Below, one piece after another: positions 8,107 through 21,592 of a DNA stretch of 61,497 bases (position 1 is its first letter; every line of letters starts with the position of its first letter). The notes under the pieces were generated by a model. It was not told where the DNA came from, made no database searches, and saw nothing but the letters and a program-made list of their open reading frames with translations. The DNA is from a virus. The stretch is from positions 1-61,497 of the IMG/VR virus record IMGVR_UViG_3300030104_001836, one strand, 5' to 3'. Position numbers and translations under genes: made by a program.

Positions 8107-11100
8107 CTAGTCTACCAGTTGAGAAAAATCTAAACCATAGTATTTTTCTAATGCTTTAATTTGATCAATAATTTCTAGTCTTTGTGTTTTAGGTGCTAAT
8201 TTTAAATCTTTGTCTATTTGACTAAAAAATGAATCTTTAATCATTCTTTTAATACCAGTCCTACTAATTTCTATACCATTTTTAATAGCTTCTTCTATAA
8301 TAAATGTAAGTGCAACATTAAGATTTTCATAATCATCACCATATTTACGAACAGCAATGTTAATATTAGTTCTAACATCTTCTAAACTTTTAAGTTTTTT
8401 TTCTTTATTAGAACGAATATTTTGCGTTAAATCATTAAATTGTGCAACCTTTGTAGGTTCAAAACCAAATGTCATTCTAAATACATCACTTAATGTTAAT
8501 TCATATTTAATACTTTGATTTTTATAAGGGTTTGTATACACAGGTTTTTGATCACCTTGTAATGTTTCAGCCATTTTATTTGTAAATAATTCTGTATCTG
8601 TAGCTATTGTAATAAGAGGCATACCACCAGCCATAGCTTCTATAGATTTTAAAGGTTTAAATGCTGGAGATAAATTAACTAAATGATCTACAGCAGTAGC
8701 TCCTTCTTGTTTTAGTTTACTAGATGTAATTAATGTATTAACAAAAGGCCCATAAAAATCTGAAATTTCTGATGGTAAAAATTTATCACCAAATCCAACT
8801 CTATTTGTTAAGTTAATACCTACACCTGTGCCACCTTCAGATATAATTGCTGGAGCACCATGAGTAATAAATTGACCAACCATTCCATTTAAATTTCCTT
8901 TAGCACTTTCATTAATTGCCCATTCTTTTAAATCTTCATCTGGTTCGTATTCTCCACCAGTAAACAATGATATAAGTTGACTTAATAACATATATGCTGG
9001 ATGACCTAATGCACCAGCTAATACAAATGTAGATGCTAAAAATCTAGGAATTTCTGCACCTCGTAAACCAGATATAAATACTAACTCTTGTATAAACCAG
9101 TTTTTAAATTGTAATGGCACACGCAAAAATGTATTTCTAAGCACACCGGGTTTAGCCGCATTATCATAACTAAATTGTTGTTGTTGTATTGCAAACAATC
9201 CAGATTTAATTGCTTGTTCTCTATTTTTTCCTTGTTTTTCTGCTTTAATGTATCCAGCAAAAAATGATGTAGCTCGGTTTAAAGACTCTGCACTTTGAAA
9301 CCATAACATAGATAGTTGACCAAGTTTTGATTGCTCTGTAAATATGTCTGGTGCTCTGTCAGAATAAAAATATGAAGATTTAATTTCTGCTTTTTGTGCA
9401 AGTAATAAAGCATCCATTGCCGCATTAACTTTACTAGCACTATAATTTTTTCTATTTTCTATAATTTCTCTGTAATCATTTCTAGCTAATCTATACAAAG
9501 CAGGAGTAGCTCTTCTAAATCCAGCAGATGTAAGAACAGCACCCATTTTACTATAAGTGTTTAAACCTATTTGTGATAAGTTAACAAGAGCAGATGATAA
9601 ATTAAAGAAAGCTCCAAGTTTTAAATGAGCAGACAAAGATAACATATCGCCTGTAATGGCACGACTTTTTCTTTGTGTTTTACCCATTGATCTTGCCATC
9701 ATTATGGATGTTGCACCACCAATAACAAGAGGAGCAACTGGGCCACCTATAATAAATGGTGTTGCAATAGCACCTATACCTGCCGCATAAAATACTTTTT
9801 TAGGAACAGATTTTTCTAAAGTGTTTAATGCATTGTCTACACTTCTTTCTAAACTTTGAGGGTTATTATTTAAATCACTCCACCAACTTCTTAAATAACT
9901 AGCTATTGGTTCAGCATCACCAGATACTTCACTAACTTCACCCCAACCTTTACGTTCCATAAGGTTTACATAATCATACTTTAATTCATCCATGTAAACA
10001 TACTTAGAAACAGAACCAGCAAATGTTCTAAATACTTTGTCTAAGTTTTTATCATATCCAGCAACACCTCTTCTTTTTAAAGAAAACTCTGGTATTCTTC
10101 TTCTGTTTTTTCTTTTCATTACATCTTTGATATTACCTCGTAACTCTTCAGCAGTGTATTTTTCTGATAAATTTTCAGTTAAAGAGTTCATAATTGATCT
10201 GTATTCTTGATCATTTAATACAGTAGCATCGTTAGAATATATTTGTAAATCAGTAGGTTCAACACGAATTACATCTGTAGGATTATTTTTTATGTGTTCT
10301 TGTGCCGCTTTTATTGCATCTTCTTTACTACTAAAAAATAAAGTATTTTTACTAGATTCAACAGCACTTGCTATTGATTCTATTTCTGCATCAGTTCTGC
10401 CTTGGGCTTTCAATCCTTCTATAGCTTGTTGGCTTAATTGAGGAGTAATTAAATTTTCATATATTTCATTGTTATTTTCATCTACCTCTTTTAAAACTTT
10501 TAATTTAAAATTACCAAAAAATTTATGTGGTACATAACCAACTTTTCTTCTTACAGATGTGCTTTGTAATTTATTTTCTTCAATGTAATATTTTTGATAA
10601 GCATTAATAAAAGAATTAAATGTTGTAGGTGACGTATTAATTAATGGTATACTATAAATTCTTTCATCTATTTCTAATAATTCAGCTAATTGCGTTTGTG
10701 GATTACCAATACCATTTCTTATTTGTCGCATTTTATTAGATCGTTGTACCATTAATCTTTTAAAGTCAGATAAAGAATCTGGACTAATTAAACTATTTAA
10801 ACGAGTTCGTATTAATGCTTGTGCCGATCTTACTTTAGGCAACATACTTCTTCTGTGTTGATCTATATATTTACCAATTTTATCAAATAACAATCTAATT
10901 TCTTTGTACATTGCTATTTCATTGTTACTAAACTTAACAGATTTAATTTTATTTATTTCATTAGTGCTAAATCCTTGACTTCTTAAATCTGCTATTTCTT
11001 GTTTAGTTAAAGTAAAACCTTCTTGTAATTCTTTATCAGTAAATACTTTTTGTGATGCATCACCAACAAACAATATATCAACAACTTTAGAAAATTGTGA

Positions 11101-14100
11101 TCCTTTATATTTAGTTCTAATATTTTTGTATCTATCAATAAAAGTTTTAGATCGTACTCGTATTTTAGATTCATACTCTATTGCTTTTTGAATTAACTTG
11201 GCTATTGATTTATCTTTTAATTGATTAGCAGTAACATAAGTTGGTAAAATATATTTTAAAAGAATTGTAAAACTTGGAAGAATACCTTCTTTAGTTGTTT
11301 TAGATAAGGTTTCTTCTGGTATATGTATTCTATCTGTAGATGATCTATCTTTATCAATAAATGGATCAATTCTTTTTTTGTTTTTTATAATCTTAAACAA
11401 TGAAGTAAGGGTATTCCTTGACCTTTTTATAACATTATCTTTAGTATTATTTTCATTCATGTCTGGAGGAGTAGCCATTGCACCAACTGATCTTGGTGTA
11501 GGGTCTCCTTCATTCTGTAAAATAACTTTTTCTTTAGATTCTTTTGCTATTTCTCTTTCTTTAATAGTTTGAAAGTTAATTCCATTTTCTGCATAATAAG
11601 GTAAAACATAATTTTCTAATACATCTAATTTAGTTGTAGCAGACCATGTTCTACCATCAGATGACTTTTTAAAATCTAAGTCAACCATGCTTTCACTACT
11701 CTTATCTAATCCTCTTTCTATTAAATCTTTTCTTGTAGTAAATACAGTTGCACTATCTCCTCCTGTTTTTTGTATACGCACATCTCCACTATAGGTTTTT
11801 AATTCACCAAATTTACTATTGTAAAGATATGACGTTGCCGCTTGGTAATCAAGCAGAACAGGAATACTAGCTTCTTCTTTTTCATGTTTATAGTTTTTAG
11901 GCATAACAATAGTTTGTATTATTGTACCATCGTTTCTTTGTAGTTTAGCAACTTGACCACCTTTAACAATAGCTGATCCAGTTAACAAATTGCCTGTAAC
12001 AATATACCTTGTTTCTCTTACATTTTCTTGACCAGATACAAACAATTGATCAATTGATTTTCCTTCCGGTGTTGTTGATGCATTTTCAATTCTATTTTCA
12101 GATGATAAATTTCCTTGGTTATCAATAAATCTTGATAAACCTAATGTAATTTTTTGTGCATCACCTTGTGCTAAAGCTATTTTAATTTTAAAACTACCAG
12201 TATTTGTAGCTGTAGATGTTCCTTCATGTTTTCTATCAAGAATAATACCATGTTCAACTATAGCGTTATCTTTTCCTGTGTTTAAAGAAATCCTTACTTG
12301 TGTTCCTACAGGAAAACTTTTTATATTTCTTGTTATTTGATTTTTAACATCTTGTAATTTTTTAACTTGTGATTGTATTTGTGCTGGTTTTTTTGTTGTG
12401 TCTTGACGAATTTTTTCTATAGCAGTATCATATATTTCAACAGCTTGATTTAATTGTTTTTCATTATATTCATCAACTTTTTCTTGAACATTTTTTGTAT
12501 TTAATTCTACATTTTCTGTAGTTAAATCTAAAGTAGTTCTTAATTCTTTTTGTAATTGTAAAGGTGTTAAAGGTTTAGTTTTTTTATTAATAGATACTTG
12601 TTCCATGTAAACTGGTTGTTGAAATATAGTTCCAGTTGTTGAACCATCTTGTATCATATCTACTTCACCAATAGATATTGCATCTGCTTTAGTTAGATTA
12701 GCCATATCTAATGTGTTAGTTCCAAATGCTGTTTCTTCTTCTTTTAACTCTACATATCTTTTTGCAACAAAATCATAATATTCAGTAGCTAATGCTGGAT
12801 CAAATATTAATAAACTACTAGAAACTTTATTAGCAATACCATCTATTTTTCCTGTTAAATCTATATCTAATACATCTCTAATTTCTGCATGAGATTCTAA
12901 AAATTCTTTTGTAACATTATCTCCTAAAGTATTAAAGAAATCTAAAGAGTCCGATGTAGTGTAAACTGAGTCTTGACCACCAGTAACAGTAGCATTTAAT
13001 GATGCCATTTTTTTTGCTAACATAGAAGATAGTCTTTGTTCTGCTGGATGATCAGTTGTCATTATAGTATACTTAGGAAGACTTACTTGTCCTGTTCTAA
13101 ATATACGACCTAACATTTGTAGGTAAGTATTAATTTCTGGTTCAGCTTCTAAGACAATCATGTGTCTTTGTTTTTTATCTTTAGCTCTTTGATCAGAATG
13201 CATAGAGTAACCAGTAGATGCACTTTGATTTATAACTAATACATCTAAGTCACCATTTTGAAAACTATCTATTCTTCTTCTTTTTTTAATAGAGGAGTCA
13301 CCTCTTGGTGTTATAATACCCTTTGAATCTATAGCGTATTGTCTACCTGTAATTTCTCCTACTTTAATATTAGAATTTCGTAAATTGTTAATAATATTAT
13401 CTACTGGATTTAAAGTTAAATTACCAAAATCAGTATCTCTTATTCTACCTTTTAATTCTTCAATTTGTTCTACTAAATTACCTTCACCAAATTCATTAAC
13501 TTCTTCATTAGTTAATTTTTTTCTTGCAGTATAAATAGGAACATCTGCTTTTGGTACTTTAACAGACATAGAATATTCTAAAGCACGATCTAGATACTTT
13601 AATAATAAATCATTATAAGTAAGTGTAATTCTATCACCAGCTTTTAAACTTTTATCTGCCATTATTTGACGAAGTAAATTTTCACCTGTTCGTGAAACTG
13701 TAATAACAACTTTTCTTTGATTGTTTTTTACTTCATTGTTTGCATAATTAACAGCATCGTTTACTTTAAAACTTGTCATTAACATTGTAGAAATATTGTA
13801 CATTTGTGATTTAAAATCACTAGGAACAACTCTACCTTGTAAACCTGTTTTTGCTTGTGCAGATGCAAAATCTGGATCAGAAGATGCAATTTTTTTAGCT
13901 ATGTCAGATAATTGCATATCAATTAAATGTATGTCTAAAAATAAATCAGAAATTTGTTTTGCTAATTCTTTATCGTGTACAACACCTTTTCCATCATTGT
14001 AAACACTATACTCTACACCATCAAAACTTCTTTCAACACGTCTATATTGACCTGTTTGTGCTAACATATTAGTTACAATTTGTTGTAAAGGAATACCTCT

Positions 14101-17100
14101 TGTTTGCATAACATCAACAAATTGATCAGAATCTGGTATAGATTCTTGTATATCTGTATTCATATACAAATCCATAACAACAGGATTTTTAGCCCATGTT
14201 GCAGAAGAAAATACTGCACCTCTAGAATTATTTAAAGCGTGTCTAATAAAAGTAGCACGAGTATTTATTTTGTCAGCTTTTACTTTTCTATTAGAACTAC
14301 CACCAGCGTTGTGACTTTCATCTAAAATAAATATAGCATTTGGTGCAATTGATTCTATAAAATTATGTCTAGCTTTATTAATAGGAGTTTTAAAACCTTG
14401 TTCATCTGCTTTTGAATCTCTATTTAATTGATAATAAGTTGTAAAAATATAATCATAATTATTTTCTAACATACCTTGATCACTAGATAACTTATTTAAT
14501 AAAGCCTCATGTTTTTCTCTTGTTTCAGTTTTAAAACCTTCTTCATTAAGAGAACTTAAATCTACAGTATGATTATTGTCAGTAGGTAATATTTTCATAT
14601 TAGATACATCTTCGCCAATATCTTTCATATCACGAATCATATCAGTATATAAACCAGATTTATGTGTAACAAAAACAACGTGTTGAGCATTTTTCTTTGC
14701 ATATCGCATAAGTGCGGCTACAACTCTACCTTTACCTATTCCTGTTTGATCACCTAAAACAAATCCTTTGTTTGCTTTTAATTGATCAATAGCTAAACCT
14801 AATGCTTCTATTTGTTCTGAACCAAATTTATCATTTACTTCATCTAAACTCATATCTAAATTATCAGCAACATATTGTTTAATGTCACCAACACGAACAT
14901 CTAAGTTACGCAATCCTTTACCAGAAGATGCTAATAACTCTATTGGCATATGAGTGTCTAAAGAATTACCTTTTACTTTAGGATTATATTTAGTTTGAAA
15001 TAATGTATTTCTTTCACCTTGAACATTTTTATATTCAGATTGTATATCTGTAGCAAAACGAACAAATGCACCCATAGATGTTTTCCATTGTTCACTATTA
15101 CTTCTAGCTTCGTTTTTTTGTTCTGGTGTTAAAGAAGTATCAATAAATGATCTGTCAATATCATTAATTAATGATTTCATTGCACTTTGAAAAGGCAATC
15201 CAGCTTTACTATGTTGATCTAATCTTTTTAATAATTGAGGTTTTACTTTATCATATGATTCTTTTGTAGGTTTTATAGTAGGAACACCAAATATTTCTGC
15301 TCCATATTCTACTTGTCCTACACCAGAATCTGGAGTAGCAGAAGCTCCTGCATCCTCTGGAGGTGTTATTCTAGATTTTAAATCATTTAAACTACTAGCA
15401 AAATCATCAAAATCTTCTTCAAGTTTTTCTTGATGATATCTATTTATGTTAGGTGATAACTCTGGATATTTATTTTTTGTTGTGTCATATATTTGTTGTA
15501 ATAACTCTTGTTGATCTTCCATTGTATCAATAAGAGTTTCCTCAATATCATTTTGTAAATAGCTTGGTATTTTAGTTTTTTTAAATCCTTGTAAAGTAGT
15601 AGCATCATAATCTAAATATACTTCTTCAAAAATGTCATAATCATATGTAAAAACATCTTTAATAATTTGTTTATCGTTATTATTTAATCCTTCTATCTTT
15701 CCGATGTCACTGGCGAGGCTTCGTTCAGCCACGACATTATCGTGCTTTCGTTGAGCGTTGTCTCGTAATTCTTGTTGGGTTTCAGTTGTATCGGGAACTG
15801 AACTTGATTCAATTCCTGTGACAGTATCTCCCAACTGTCCAGACACATTTCCAGTAATGTTGTCCCCAACGATCCTTCCTTCAACTTCGTTTCTAGATTG
15901 AACATCCTGTCCCTCGATGGGATCAACAGATTCATCCTCTCTTCTAGGTCTTCCTCGTTCTCCGCTAGTATCTGGAGTCGGTTTGCTAACAGATGTAGGT
16001 ACTCCTCGTACCCCAGTTGTAACTCGTTCTGATGACCCACTAACGTCAGTATCGGGTTGCTCTCTACTGCCCAGAACGCTTTCGCCTCTTTCAACGTCAG
16101 TAATGTCGGTAATTGTTTCAGTGTCTCGCTCACTCACTTCCTCCTTTTGTTCTGCGAACTCCGGTAGGGGAGGAGTCTCTGGTGGTTTTTTATCATAGTT
16201 TTTATTTTTAATATACTTAATTGCATCTTTTATTGGTTTTACCTTAATTTCTTTGGTTTTTTTTCTAATTAATTTACCAGTTGCTTCTTCTTTAATGTCT
16301 AAAGTTGCTTTATTTATTTCATTTATTAAAATTTGAAAATCATTTGGATTACTAGGATTAGTTTGATTTACTAAATATAATCTATCTAATCTATTAGTAT
16401 TTGTAAGTTCATTAACTCTTTGTGCATATGCACTTTCTACATCTTGTAAATATTTTTTACCTGCTACGGATGGATCTATAATTTCTCTTCTATATGCATC
16501 TATAGCATTATAATATTGATTTAGTTTTGTTAATGGTGATCTAGGATCATATAATTTAAATATACCTTGACCATAAGTTATATCGTCTTCTTTTTTTTGT
16601 ACAGCTTGTTCTCTTTGAGTTACTTTATCTTCTACTACAGGTGTTTCTTTTGTAACTGCATCAGTATCTTCTAATGTAGATAGAAAACCAGCCATTTCAT
16701 CTTCTGTTAAAACATTTTTTTCTTCTTCTTTTTTAACAGGCTCAACAGGTGTAGTAGTAGGTTCAGCAAATATTTTTTCAGCCGTAGTTAAAGGTTTTTC
16801 CTCAACAACAGGTGCAACAGCTTCTGGTGTAGTCTCTTCTACTACAGGAGTTTCTTTTACTACAGGAGTAGGTTGTTCTACTGGTCTACCTTCTAATTCA
16901 GCTATTCTTTTATTAATAGCATCAAAGTTTTTTTGTACTGTTTTGTTTTCTAATTTGCCTTGTTCTATATATCTAGATGTAACTTTTAATGCAGATAAAT
17001 TATTTTCTTGAGATAATAAATTATCTAATGGTAATTGTGTTAGTTCATCTTTAAGAGTTTCATTGTCACTTGCAATGGCTTTACCCATTTGTCTATTCCA

Positions 17101-18969
17101 ACCATTGTCACCTGTAATAGAATCTACTTTAATTTTAGGTGTAGGTGTTGGCTTACCTTTTTCAAATTGTTCTCTTTTTTTTGTAAGTTCTTCTAATCCT
17201 TCTTCTAAACCAGTTTTAATTTCGCCTTGCTCATCTCTAATAAGATCATCTTTAGGTAATTGTTTTTGTAAAGATTCTATTTGTGTATCTAATTTTTCTA
17301 TTTTTGGTTTATTAATTTCTTTTTGTTCTTCTGAAAAAAAAGGATTGTCTAAACTTGTTTTTTGTAAAGTTAAATCTGTAATTTCTTTTTGTATGTCTAA
17401 TGCACTTTTATCTGTTTTATCTACAACTTCTTCTTCTACAACACTTTCTTCTATATCATCTCTTGATTGAAATTGTGGTTTACCTTCTTCAAGATTTTTT
17501 TGTTGCATTTCTTCATATGCATCAACTTTAGTTTTAGTTTCTGGTTTATCTAACCAATCTATTTTTAAATCTCTATCTAAAGGTTCTTCAACAATACCAC
17601 CATCATCTAGTTCAACTCTTATGTTTTTACTTGTAGACCCATCATCATTAAGAACAACAGGATATTCTACAACACGACCTTTTCCTATAGGTTCACCAGA
17701 TTTAGTTAATACAATGTTATTAGAACCAACAGGAGGATATCCATCTGGAGAACTATCTGGTGCTACTTCATCTGGTGTTCCAACTTCAGTTGCTTCTTGA
17801 GTTGCTTTTTCTGTATCACCCTCAATAGTTTCAGAACCATCATCTTCTAAAATAGTTTTTTCATCTACTTTATCTTCTAGTTTTTCTTTTCTTTGTACAC
17901 CACCACTTATGCCACCAAATACAAGACCAGCTACAAATCCCGGCCCAAATTGTTCACCTGCATAATCAAATGTTTCTCTTTCTTTATTGTATGTTTGTTC
18001 TATTAAATTTTGTAAAACATTTTGAAATTCTTCTGTTCCACCTTCCCATACACCTTGAGTAACTGATTGTTTAAGTATATTAGCAATTCTACTTTTTACT
18101 CCCGGAACAACTTTATTAAAACGATTTAATAATATTTGAACAGGTAAATAATCAGCAGAACCCGGAGCAACACCAAGTATAGTTGCCATAACAACATCAG
18201 TTTCATCAGTGTCACCATCAAAAGCATATACACGATCTACAGATTCGCCACCTTCCATTGCTATTGCAGTTCCAAGACCAGCTACAGTTCCAACACCAAA
18301 TGGAGCACCAACAACTGAAGCACCTATAATAGGAATAGTGCTACCAATACCTTCAAAACCTTTGTATATTGTATCTGCTAATTTATTATCTTTCCATCGT
18401 TGATCTTGCGGAAATGTTTCTTGTGCAAATTGTTGTAATTCTTCACCAGCTTTAAAAAACTCTGACTCTTTAGCAGAATATTGATTTCTATATGTGTCAA
18501 CTATTTGTTCTGCTCTATCAACAATTTCTGGACTATATTGATCTTTTTCATTTAATATACTAAGAGCGGCTCTATATTGTGCAGTTACTTCCTGTAAATC
18601 ACCAGAAAAATAATCTGGCATTTTTTCAAGACCAGCACCATATTTAAGACCAGAACCTACAGCTTGTATTGTACCAGCAGGTATTGCAGATGTAATTAAA
18701 TCTGCACCAAATTCTGGAAGAGTAGTTAAACCAAATGGTTTTTCTTCTTTAGGTTCTTCTTCTATTGTTTCGGGGGAGGGTTGTACAGACGTTCCTGTAA
18801 GTCTAGATGTGTCAAATGCATTTGTATCTGTGGTAAGAAATTCAGTAAATAATCTTTTATCTGGATATCTATCTTGATATTGACTGTATAACTCGTTTAT
18901 TAAATCTTCATCACTATATAGTAAAAAATTTCTATTATCTTCACGAGCAAGTTCTAAAGGTGTTGGCAT
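8107..18969 (-). CDS. Giant polyvalent protein with Strawberry-notch-type helicase core (DarB-like, possible injected protein)
   Basis: A 3,620-residue protein, about 18% of the genome. Residues about 200-245 and 340-360 are Gly/Ala-rich hydrophobic segments. About 370-1130 is acidic, Pro/Thr-rich linker. The helicase core follows: QTGIGKGR (Walker A, 1408-1415), DESH (1550-1553), the SSAT segment, and motif VI QMLGRIFRTGQV (1951-1962), the arrangement seen in Strawberry-notch/DarB-like phage proteins. The C-terminal third holds helical domains like large polyvalent protein domains, with hydrophobic stretches at about 3057-3092 and 3307-3337. Location beside internal virion proteins suggests packaging and injection, perhaps for antirestriction. 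AAAGGA precedes the ATG by 7 nt. Injection is inference; the helicase call is firm. Confidence 0.8.
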   Translation of the reverse strand: MPTPLELAREDNRNFLLYSDEDLINELYSQYQDRYPDKRLFTEFLTTDTNAFDTSRLTGTSVQPSPETIEEEPKEEKPFGLTTLPEFGADLITSAIPAGTIQAVGSGLKYGAGLEKMPDYFSGDLQEVTAQYRAALSILNEKDQYSPEIVDRAEQIVDTYRNQYSAKESEFFKAGEELQQFAQETFPQDQRWKDNKLADTIYKGFEGIGSTIPIIGASVVGAPFGVGTVAGLGTAIAMEGGESVDRVYAFDGDTDETDVVMATILGVAPGSADYLPVQILLNRFNKVVPGVKSRIANILKQSVTQGVWEGGTEEFQNVLQNLIEQTYNKERETFDYAGEQFGPGFVAGLVFGGISGGVQRKEKLEDKVDEKTILEDDGSETIEGDTEKATQEATEVGTPDEVAPDSSPDGYPPVGSNNIVLTKSGEPIGKGRVVEYPVVLNDDGSTSKNIRVELDDGGIVEEPLDRDLKIDWLDKPETKTKVDAYEEMQQKNLEEGKPQFQSRDDIEESVVEEEVVDKTDKSALDIQKEITDLTLQKTSLDNPFFSEEQKEINKPKIEKLDTQIESLQKQLPKDDLIRDEQGEIKTGLEEGLEELTKKREQFEKGKPTPTPKIKVDSITGDNGWNRQMGKAIASDNETLKDELTQLPLDNLLSQENNLSALKVTSRYIEQGKLENKTVQKNFDAINKRIAELEGRPVEQPTPVVKETPVVEETTPEAVAPVVEEKPLTTAEKIFAEPTTTPVEPVKKEEEKNVLTEDEMAGFLSTLEDTDAVTKETPVVEDKVTQREQAVQKKEDDITYGQGIFKLYDPRSPLTKLNQYYNAIDAYRREIIDPSVAGKKYLQDVESAYAQRVNELTNTNRLDRLYLVNQTNPSNPNDFQILINEINKATLDIKEEATGKLIRKKTKEIKVKPIKDAIKYIKNKNYDKKPPETPPLPEFAEQKEEVSERDTETITDITDVERGESVLGSREQPDTDVSGSSERVTTGVRGVPTSVSKPTPDTSGERGRPRREDESVDPIEGQDVQSRNEVEGRIVGDNITGNVSGQLGDTVTGIESSSVPDTTETQQELRDNAQRKHDNVVAERSLASDIGKIEGLNNNDKQIIKDVFTYDYDIFEEVYLDYDATTLQGFKKTKIPSYLQNDIEETLIDTMEDQQELLQQIYDTTKNKYPELSPNINRYHQEKLEEDFDDFASSLNDLKSRITPPEDAGASATPDSGVGQVEYGAEIFGVPTIKPTKESYDKVKPQLLKRLDQHSKAGLPFQSAMKSLINDIDRSFIDTSLTPEQKNEARSNSEQWKTSMGAFVRFATDIQSEYKNVQGERNTLFQTKYNPKVKGNSLDTHMPIELLASSGKGLRNLDVRVGDIKQYVADNLDMSLDEVNDKFGSEQIEALGLAIDQLKANKGFVLGDQTGIGKGRVVAALMRYAKKNAQHVVFVTHKSGLYTDMIRDMKDIGEDVSNMKILPTDNNHTVDLSSLNEEGFKTETREKHEALLNKLSSDQGMLENNYDYIFTTYYQLNRDSKADEQGFKTPINKARHNFIESIAPNAIFILDESHNAGGSSNRKVKADKINTRATFIRHALNNSRGAVFSSATWAKNPVVMDLYMNTDIQESIPDSDQFVDVMQTRGIPLQQIVTNMLAQTGQYRRVERSFDGVEYSVYNDGKGVVHDKELAKQISDLFLDIHLIDMQLSDIAKKIASSDPDFASAQAKTGLQGRVVPSDFKSQMYNISTMLMTSFKVNDAVNYANNEVKNNQRKVVITVSRTGENLLRQIMADKSLKAGDRITLTYNDLLLKYLDRALEYSMSVKVPKADVPIYTARKKLTNEEVNEFGEGNLVEQIEELKGRIRDTDFGNLTLNPVDNIINNLRNSNIKVGEITGRQYAIDSKGIITPRGDSSIKKRRRIDSFQNGDLDVLVINQSASTGYSMHSDQRAKDKKQRHMIVLEAEPEINTYLQMLGRIFRTGQVSLPKYTIMTTDHPAEQRLSSMLAKKMASLNATVTGGQDSVYTTSDSLDFFNTLGDNVTKEFLESHAEIRDVLDIDLTGKIDGIANKVSSSLLIFDPALATEYYDFVAKRYVELKEEETAFGTNTLDMANLTKADAISIGEVDMIQDGSTTGTIFQQPVYMEQVSINKKTKPLTPLQLQKELRTTLDLTTENVELNTKNVQEKVDEYNEKQLNQAVEIYDTAIEKIRQDTTKKPAQIQSQVKKLQDVKNQITRNIKSFPVGTQVRISLNTGKDNAIVEHGIILDRKHEGTSTATNTGSFKIKIALAQGDAQKITLGLSRFIDNQGNLSSENRIENASTTPEGKSIDQLFVSGQENVRETRYIVTGNLLTGSAIVKGGQVAKLQRNDGTIIQTIVMPKNYKHEKEEASIPVLLDYQAATSYLYNSKFGELKTYSGDVRIQKTGGDSATVFTTRKDLIERGLDKSSESMVDLDFKKSSDGRTWSATTKLDVLENYVLPYYAENGINFQTIKEREIAKESKEKVILQNEGDPTPRSVGAMATPPDMNENNTKDNVIKRSRNTLTSLFKIIKNKKRIDPFIDKDRSSTDRIHIPEETLSKTTKEGILPSFTILLKYILPTYVTANQLKDKSIAKLIQKAIEYESKIRVRSKTFIDRYKNIRTKYKGSQFSKVVDILFVGDASQKVFTDKELQEGFTLTKQEIADLRSQGFSTNEINKIKSVKFSNNEIAMYKEIRLLFDKIGKYIDQHRRSMLPKVRSAQALIRTRLNSLISPDSLSDFKRLMVQRSNKMRQIRNGIGNPQTQLAELLEIDERIYSIPLINTSPTTFNSFINAYQKYYIEENKLQSTSVRRKVGYVPHKFFGNFKLKVLKEVDENNNEIYENLITPQLSQQAIEGLKAQGRTDAEIESIASAVESSKNTLFFSSKEDAIKAAQEHIKNNPTDVIRVEPTDLQIYSNDATVLNDQEYRSIMNSLTENLSEKYTAEELRGNIKDVMKRKNRRRIPEFSLKRRGVAGYDKNLDKVFRTFAGSVSKYVYMDELKYDYVNLMERKGWGEVSEVSGDAEPIASYLRSWWSDLNNNPQSLERSVDNALNTLEKSVPKKVFYAAGIGAIATPFIIGGPVAPLVIGGATSIMMARSMGKTQRKSRAITGDMLSLSAHLKLGAFFNLSSALVNLSQIGLNTYSKMGAVLTSAGFRRATPALYRLARNDYREIIENRKNYSASKVNAAMDALLLAQKAEIKSSYFYSDRAPDIFTEQSKLGQLSMLWFQSAESLNRATSFFAGYIKAEKQGKNREQAIKSGLFAIQQQQFSYDNAAKPGVLRNTFLRVPLQFKNWFIQELVFISGLRGAEIPRFLASTFVLAGALGHPAYMLLSQLISLFTGGEYEPDEDLKEWAINESAKGNLNGMVGQFITHGAPAIISEGGTGVGINLTNRVGFGDKFLPSEISDFYGPFVNTLITSSKLKQEGATAVDHLVNLSPAFKPLKSIEAMAGGMPLITIATDTELFTNKMAETLQGDQKPVYTNPYKNQSIKYELTLSDVFRMTFGFEPTKVAQFNDLTQNIRSNKEKKLKSLEDVRTNINIAVRKYGDDYENLNVALTFIIEEAIKNGIEISRTGIKRMIKDSFFSQIDKDLKLAPKTQRLEIIDQIKALEKYYGLDFSQLVD
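15693..16133 (-). CDS. Candidate overlapping gene nested in the giant gene (146 codons, GTG start)
   Basis: A same-strand alternative frame inside the linker-coding part of the giant gene. It starts at GTG 16131-16133, preceded by a perfect AGGAGG (16140-16145) with a 6-nt spacer. The product would be leucine-rich and mostly helical (LKQLPTLLTLKEAKAFWAVE, EEYLHLLANRLQILAENEED) with no membrane segment, while the host frame is disordered here. Local GC is visibly higher than in the surroundings. No host codon of the form NTA before A or G occurs among about twenty opportunities, which keeps this frame open. Leucine richness can arise from a shadow frame, so confidence is moderate. Confidence 0.45.
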   Translation of the reverse strand: MSETLKQLPTLLTLKEAKAFWAVESNPILTLVGHQNELQLGYEEYLHLLANRLQILAENEEDLEERMNLLIPSRDRMFNLETKLKEGSLGTTLLEMCLDSWEILSQELNQVQFPIQLKPNKNYETTLNESTIMSWLNEASPVTSER

Positions 18970-20539: not shown

Positions 20540-21592
20540 TTAATTAAGTTTTTTAAAGTCTACATCTAGTTTAGAATAATCAACTAGAAGATATCCATTA
20601 TCATGTTTTATAGATGCCCAAGGAACTTCTTGTGCTATAACACCTTGATATTTATCTTTATTACCTTTGTAATTAAAAGAATAAATATTTATATTAGAAG
20701 GAGATGTACCTATTAATTTAAGATTTTCTTTTAATTGTGCATCACTAAAAAAACCTGCATTATATGCTCCAACACCAGCTAAACCTAATCCAGCAATTTG
20801 TTGTGCACCACTAGCTGTTGGTTGTTGTTGGTAAGTTGTCATAGGAGAAGGAACGCCACCAAGTATACCAGCACCAAAACGAATTTGTTCATATGGAAAC
20901 TGTTGTTGTCTTTGGAAATCACCATAAGTAATATCCATTCCTCTTTGTAATTGTTGTTGTCCTAATTGCCCAGCTTGTTGTAAACCTGCCATACCTGCTT
21001 GACCTAATTTCATTTCTTGTCCACCAATTGCACCAAATGTACCAGCACCTTGTAGTTGTCTAGCTCTTTCATTTTGTGCCATAGACATAGCATTACGATA
21101 TGCTTGTTCTTGTAATTGTGCCGCAGTTCGTGCTTGAACATCTTGTAAATTACGTTGTTGTTCTGCTTGTTGTACACCAAATCGTGAACCACCATATGCA
21201 CCAGACCTTACTGCCGCATCAGATAGTTTTTGACCTTGTATATCGCTTCTTCTTTGTAATTCATCAAGTGTTTTAGTCATAACTTGATCAATATAAGGGC
21301 TTCGGTATCTTTCTATATCTTGTCCAGAAATAGGTGCTGAACCAACACCGCCAAGACCTCTAGCCATTGCTAAATCTGGTCTATAAGCCTGTGATTGTTC
21401 TACAGCTTGTTGCCTTGCCATTTGTTGTTCTGTAGTTAAAGGTGCAAGTCTTTGCCCTCCATAAGGAACATAAGGAACTTGTGGCCCAGTTACAGCTTCT
21501 GTTTGTCCAACTAAATTTTTTGCCGCAGTTTCTAACCATTCTGGCAATTCTTGTTTAGTAGTTGTTTCTACTATATTACTTCCAAAACACAT
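20540..21592 (-). CDS. Internal virion/DNA-transfer-like protein with C-terminal S74-type domain
   Basis: A 350-residue protein. It begins MCFGSNIVETTTKQELPEWL. Residues about 40-235 are Gln/Ala/Gly-rich and helical (many QQ, AQNERARQLQ), typical of phage DNA-transfer or ejection proteins. A Gly/Ala segment (GAQQIAGLGLAGVGAYNAG) precedes FFSDAQLKENLKLIG and YQGVIAQEVP, the hallmarks of the peptidase S74 intramolecular chaperone domain. That domain usually ends tail fibres; here it ends a protein that does not look like a fibre. Its TAA shares no overlap with the next gene. Confidence 0.7.
   Translation of the reverse strand: MCFGSNIVETTTKQELPEWLETAAKNLVGQTEAVTGPQVPYVPYGGQRLAPLTTEQQMARQQAVEQSQAYRPDLAMARGLGGVGSAPISGQDIERYRSPYIDQVMTKTLDELQRRSDIQGQKLSDAAVRSGAYGGSRFGVQQAEQQRNLQDVQARTAAQLQEQAYRNAMSMAQNERARQLQGAGTFGAIGGQEMKLGQAGMAGLQQAGQLGQQQLQRGMDITYGDFQRQQQFPYEQIRFGAGILGGVPSPMTTYQQQPTASGAQQIAGLGLAGVGAYNAGFFSDAQLKENLKLIGTSPSNINIYSFNYKGNKDKYQGVIAQEVPWASIKHDNGYLLVDYSKLDVDFKKLN

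Follow-up and report, generated by a model that had tools for sequence, protein, structure and literature searches.

The window analysed here is the whole of a 61.5-kb virus record (61,497 nucleotides; IMG/VR record IMGVR_UViG_3300030104_001836), in which terminase, portal, major head and DNA ejection genes are present. Its giant gene adjoins the ejection cassette and, like other genes for polyvalent proteins, is giant, multidomain and encoded together with virion genes, with a single module named by Pfam in the window copy, a Strawberry-notch-type helicase. On the same strand, and within this gene, lies a second open reading frame. The features that are discussed below are as follows:

8107..18969, minus strand: host giant gene, 3620 aa, a polyvalent protein with a Strawberry-notch-type SF2/SNF2 helicase
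12943..14772, minus strand: helicase core of the host protein, aa 1400-2009 (AAA_34, ResIII, Helicase_C_4)
15693..16133, minus strand: nested gene of 146 aa, opened by GTG, in the +1 frame of the giant gene
15696..16132, minus strand: host-frame linker under the nested gene, rich in Ser/Thr/Gly/Glu/Asp/Arg and disordered-looking
16140..16145, minus strand: Shine-Dalgarno AGGAGG of the nested gene, 6 nt before the GTG, overlapping the host codons AAG GAG (K-E)
20540..21592, minus strand: second gene upstream of the giant gene, for a DNA ejection protein (PHROG 4287), which gives context to a giant protein ejected from the virion

A sequence-only reading of this window had proposed a hidden gene here, with a GTG start, an AGGAGG 6 nt upstream and the longest same-strand alternative frame of the giant gene. 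We find exactly this arrangement: the GTG lies at 16133-16131 and is followed by 146 open codons, with the stop ending at 15693, and no other +1 ORF in the giant gene is as long. The same reading had remarked on a shift in base composition, and the GC content does rise, from about 0.28 to 0.41-0.47 over the ORF. The Shine-Dalgarno spans a host AAG-GAG pair, codons that account for just 6% of Lys and 10% of Glu in the gene as a whole.

Local composition, which had been named as a possible source of such a frame, is insufficient to explain it. When the codons of the whole gene were resampled synonymously 1000 times, the longest +1 ORF had a mean length of 55.5 aa, a 99th percentile of 86 and a maximum of just 109, and 146 codons were never reached (0/1000). 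With the host residues of the overlap fixed and codons drawn from gene-wide usage, the nested frame was open in none of 20,000 draws; when the local synonymous codons alone were permuted it was open in 0.12%.

The homologue search that the sequence-only reading had suggested proved productive. A helicase profile built from the window and the phages BS-TP4 and MD-2021a was used to scan viral contigs and returned 80 loci, of which 77 are matched by profiles of the nested protein; the other three are one truncated contig and two loci without a nested-profile match. Most viral loci carry a +1 ORF of 96-154 aa, preceded by an AAGGAG/AGGAG-like site and opened by ATG or GTG, at an offset from the helicase match of about -440 nt in the main group and of about -1145 to -1247 nt in the clade of the window. 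Stops in related genes, or loss of the initiation signals, had been named as grounds for dropping the gene; the relatives are free of stops in the nested frame and keep the Shine-Dalgarno and the start. The frame is conserved in host genes that range in GC content from 0.30 to 0.7. A stop codon of the nested frame stands immediately before the start in 49 of 84 homologues.

The window ORF belongs to this family by several comparisons. A profile from which the window and its near-copy L006 were left out matches the ORF with an E-value of 3.4e-12 and finds nothing else when all six frames of the window are searched. Built independently, a profile from cyanobacterial nested proteins matches it with an E-value of 1.1e-3 and the related locus L007 with one of 2e-6, and the cyanobacterial and viral families align in hhalign with an E-value of 2e-14 over 127 columns. 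Matches from tblastn of the nested proteins of the window and of a second homologue (L044) against phage records were at chance level or absent. Some Klebsiella matches of a short homologue (E 0.2-0.8) were set aside, as they fall over ordinary adjacent genes in an unrelated context.

Beyond viral contigs, the helicase profile found 326 relatives in a scan of genomes, and among the best 80 of these the nested family is profile-matched in 41, mainly in cyanobacteria, with Pseudomonadota among the carriers too. Cultured strains with a copy include Paracoccus onchidii Z330, Falsiroseomonas tokyonensis K-20, Nodosilinea nodulosa PCC 7104 and Leptolyngbya PCC 7375. A mobilizable cyanobacterial plasmid, plasmid3 of Synechococcus sp. 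NIES-970, also has the nested gene, unannotated, inside its 'putative helicase'. In a context-free scan with a profile of a 15-sequence core of nested proteins, all 36 confirmed loci were nested in the +1 frame. Whole-genome searches of eight bacterial genomes gave 14 nested copies, 13 of them short open frames and one fused; neither these searches nor the context-free scan yielded a standalone copy. The fused copy, the second in Leptolyngbya (L148, 7831), differs from its relative L131 by a 1-nt insertion that joins the nested and helicase frames, and is read as a damaged copy or an assembly error, not a fusion gene.

On the helicase tree the carriers occupy a single large, supported clade in which gaps are few; a clade of Bacteroidota is without the nested gene. 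The Acinetobacter phage MD-2021a has a methylase-helicase and no nested ORF. These Bacteroidota helicases and that of MD-2021a indicate that helicases of this kind do not generally depend on the nested gene. Separately, the cultured Bacteroides phage BS-TP4 (PQ571277) has a 119-aa +1 ORF at an offset of -404 from its helicase match, without a Shine-Dalgarno; its similarity to the nested family is weak, and the score of 8.3 bits no more than suggests homology.

In related genes the nested ORF occupies the linker between a methylase and the helicase. The order of modules in these host genes is SLT, N6-methylase (NPPF), linker, helicase and LPD38, in varying combinations. The host-frame linker is rich in Gly/Pro/Arg/Ser, and hydrophobic residues make up 13% of it, compared with 33% of the nested product. 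In the pairs L013/L027, L018/L067 and others, the region upstream of the nested gene and the helicase have diverged to strongly unequal extents (2% vs 14%; 30% vs 3%), as if modules had recombined around the nested region.

An overlap-aware selection analysis was among the checks that had been proposed. We took 15 disjoint close pairs and counted substitutions by host codon position, in the overlap and in the rest of the giant genes. Host positions 1, 2 and 3 received 476/267/224 substitutions in the overlap and 8040/5737/17529 elsewhere (chi-square p 7e-93). Host codon position 1 coincides with position 3 of the nested codon, and host position 1 exceeded position 3 in all 15 pairs in the overlap and in none of the 15 elsewhere. 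Relative to the expectation from random change, the nested frame has an N/S of 0.36 across the family (15 pairs), compared with 1.37 in the host linker. These ratios, taken with the shift in position, show that constraint acts on the nested protein. In the host frame, which remains open, the linker sequence is nearly free. In a sliding scan of the whole giant gene the nested region is depleted in position-3 changes in 12 of 14 pairs, the exceptions being L124/L139 and the pair of the window and L006, which has too few differences. As this latter pair differs at just five sites in the overlap, selection is established for the family, not for the window copy alone.

The nested product is confidently predicted to be a small acidic globular protein. 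AlphaFold models of the window protein (pLDDT 85.3, pTM 0.82) and of the homologue L044 (pLDDT 91.6, pTM 0.85) share a similar order of elements, namely short strands, a long helix and several more helices. The window protein has a pI of 4.6 and a net charge of -11, and the family medians are 4.4 and -10. With Foldseek at E <= 0.001 there was no match in the PDB for either model or in BFVD for the window model, and searches of Pfam, NCBIfam, PADLOC and PHROG gave no credible family match. Two low-scoring candidates, EFG_C in Pfam (E 0.095) and a beta-galactosidase in the PDB (E 0.5), were taken as chance.

How does this arrangement compare with known systems? The nearest likeness of the host gene is to DarB of phage P1 and the DarB-like proteins of Bcep22-like phages, which are also giant and multidomain and encoded beside virion and ejection genes. 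Among polyvalent proteins, methylase-helicase dyads have been described as forming the antirestriction machinery of the DarB-like kind (Iyer et al. 2017, PMC5512222), and virions of phage JC1 were found to contain a DarB-like giant protein (PMC9144972). The relatives of the window's host gene carry the SLT, N6-methylase, Strawberry-notch helicase and LPD38 domains of this kind, but the clade of the window differs in that no methylase motif is detectable. The motif NPP[FYW] before the helicase is present in nearly all sampled relatives and was found in none of the window, L006 and L007, and the window's own gene does not show the methylase-helicase dyad. The description of the host as antirestriction-like in the sequence-only reading holds for the kind of gene, even if the methylase motif escapes detection in the window copy. 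Searching the text of Iyer et al. turned up no reference to an overlap.

Nested genes themselves are familiar in phages. The spanin gene Rz1 is embedded in Rz in the +1 frame and encodes a lipoprotein that partners Rz in lysis. It resembles the present case as a same-strand nested phage gene with its own start, whereas the product here is predicted to be globular, is encoded within a helicase gene and is unrelated in sequence to Rz1; an embedded Rz1 is mentioned in the JC1 paper (PMC9144972). Two papers describe overprinted genes of viruses in which one product is ordered and the other disordered (PMC8227390, PMC9119678), and these are alike in having a folded product in one frame and a disordered, fast-evolving one in the other; the homologues here differ in that they are carried by dsDNA phages, by prophages and by a plasmid, across several bacterial phyla. 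The genes olg1 and olg2 of Pseudomonas phage Fc02, small overlapping genes of the lysogeny locus with exclusion activity (PMC9936078), are alternate-frame phage genes too, of another place and size. Overprinting is thus already known, and it is the nested gene family that is new. Our literature searches covered open-access papers, incompletely, and returned no description of it.

Taken together, conservation, the substitution pattern, the predicted fold and codon resampling back the proposal of a hidden gene on a disordered host linker, and we regard it as practically certain that the window ORF is a genuine gene that codes for a protein and is overprinted in the +1 frame. The odd composition of the linker is what one would expect if a GC-rich stretch had merely thrown up an open frame by chance. 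The resampling results, the conservation across host genes of GC 0.30 to 0.7, the confident fold and the purifying selection on the +1 frame in 15/15 pairs stand against this, and the selection refutes it for the family; for the window ORF we give it almost no weight. Programmed frameshifting from the giant frame into the ORF, giving the giant protein an alternative C-terminus and no separate product, is very improbable. It would suit an ORF on the same strand, in the +1 frame and in a linker between domains, but the stop directly before the start in 49/84 homologues makes such entry unlikely, and the Shine-Dalgarno and start are conserved.

The ORF is, in our reading, an old gene overprinted on a disordered stretch of the giant polyvalent protein, the linker ahead of its Strawberry-notch-type helicase. 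In the mechanism that we propose, ribosomes would initiate independently on the giant mRNA, at the Shine-Dalgarno and start codon of the nested gene, and the nested protein, being made off the same message, may serve as a dedicated partner of the giant protein. It might act as a folding or assembly factor, or as a keeper under which the helicase stays inactive, and fit for packaging, until it is ejected. The nested gene accompanies the helicase module in phage, chromosomal and plasmid forms. As the window, L006 and L007 keep it without the NPPF motif, its role appears to be independent of that methylase, and its presence with the helicase module alone favours a partner or keeper. Since escape from a host gene is difficult for a gene nested in it, this strict linkage is weak evidence for a physical partnership. 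We consider the chances about even that the product serves the giant helicase protein, which is probably ejected from the virion, as a dedicated partner or an assembly factor.

Two other roles for a real gene share much of the remaining weight. The product may have a function unrelated to the helicase, such as that of a virion component or a regulator, and simply be trapped in the linker. Nesting would then account for the linkage without any partnership, and neither folds nor families hint at a function, but the gene stays with the helicase module both in giant virion-type genes and in cyanobacterial and plasmid genes for proteins of about 2000 aa that are otherwise very different; we think this role unlikely, though it deserves serious consideration. 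Slightly less likely still is the proposal of the sequence-only reading that the product is a free-standing counter-defence factor, for antirestriction or anti-immunity. In its favour, DarB-like methylase-helicase genes, the host gene's kind, have a link to antirestriction (PMC5512222), the family sits on phages and a mobilizable plasmid, and the protein is acidic. Against it, there is no match in PADLOC or to any other known family, and no standalone copies were found, which is unusual for a mobile counter-defence gene. The yardstick of charge for a DNA mimic is provided by Ocr and ArdA, and a net charge of about -10 over 132-146 aa is modest for such a mimic. The confinement of the nested gene to one helicase gene, even where the methylase is missing, fits a partner at least as well as it fits counter-defence.

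We also put forward a broader and more tentative view, to which we give somewhat less credence than to the partner role itself. The nested gene may represent a family with a new fold that lives solely overprinted in the methylase-helicase genes of mobile elements, that arose about once, and that phages, prophages and plasmids from several bacterial phyla have kept to regulate, from within the same gene, an injected helicase. Giant polyvalent genes may then be a general nursery of hidden genes, and we suggest that they are worth searching for more. Standard annotation misses the nested gene, which is absent from the annotations of every annotated record examined; BS-TP4, NIES-970 plasmid3, JC1 and BcepIL02 each hold an unannotated nested ORF. 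The family is a clear example of long-standing overprinting in dsDNA phages, in which the nested product is folded and the host linker loose. With it, de novo gene birth, the appearance of new folds and the control of virion-ejected enzymes become questions open to direct testing.

Further nested ORFs were seen in giant genes. The DarB-like genes of two cultured Burkholderia phages, JC1 (OM283127) and BcepIL02 (FJ937737), contain a second kind of +1 nested ORF, at codons 1393 and 1562, of 112 and 107 aa respectively, with GAAGGAG and an ATG start. It is matched by none of the profiles of the window's nested family, to which it is apparently unrelated. The sequences of the two phages are 78% identical over the nested frame and 74% over that of the host, and substitutions at the three codon positions number 25/13/18 in the nested ORF compared with 552/399/1119 over the gene. 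Short +1 nested ORFs of 74 and 73 aa lie at -2912 and -2885 from the helicase match in the loci L064 and L077; these have GAAGGAG and an ATG, lie on a Gln/Gly-rich linker and are depleted in position-3 changes.
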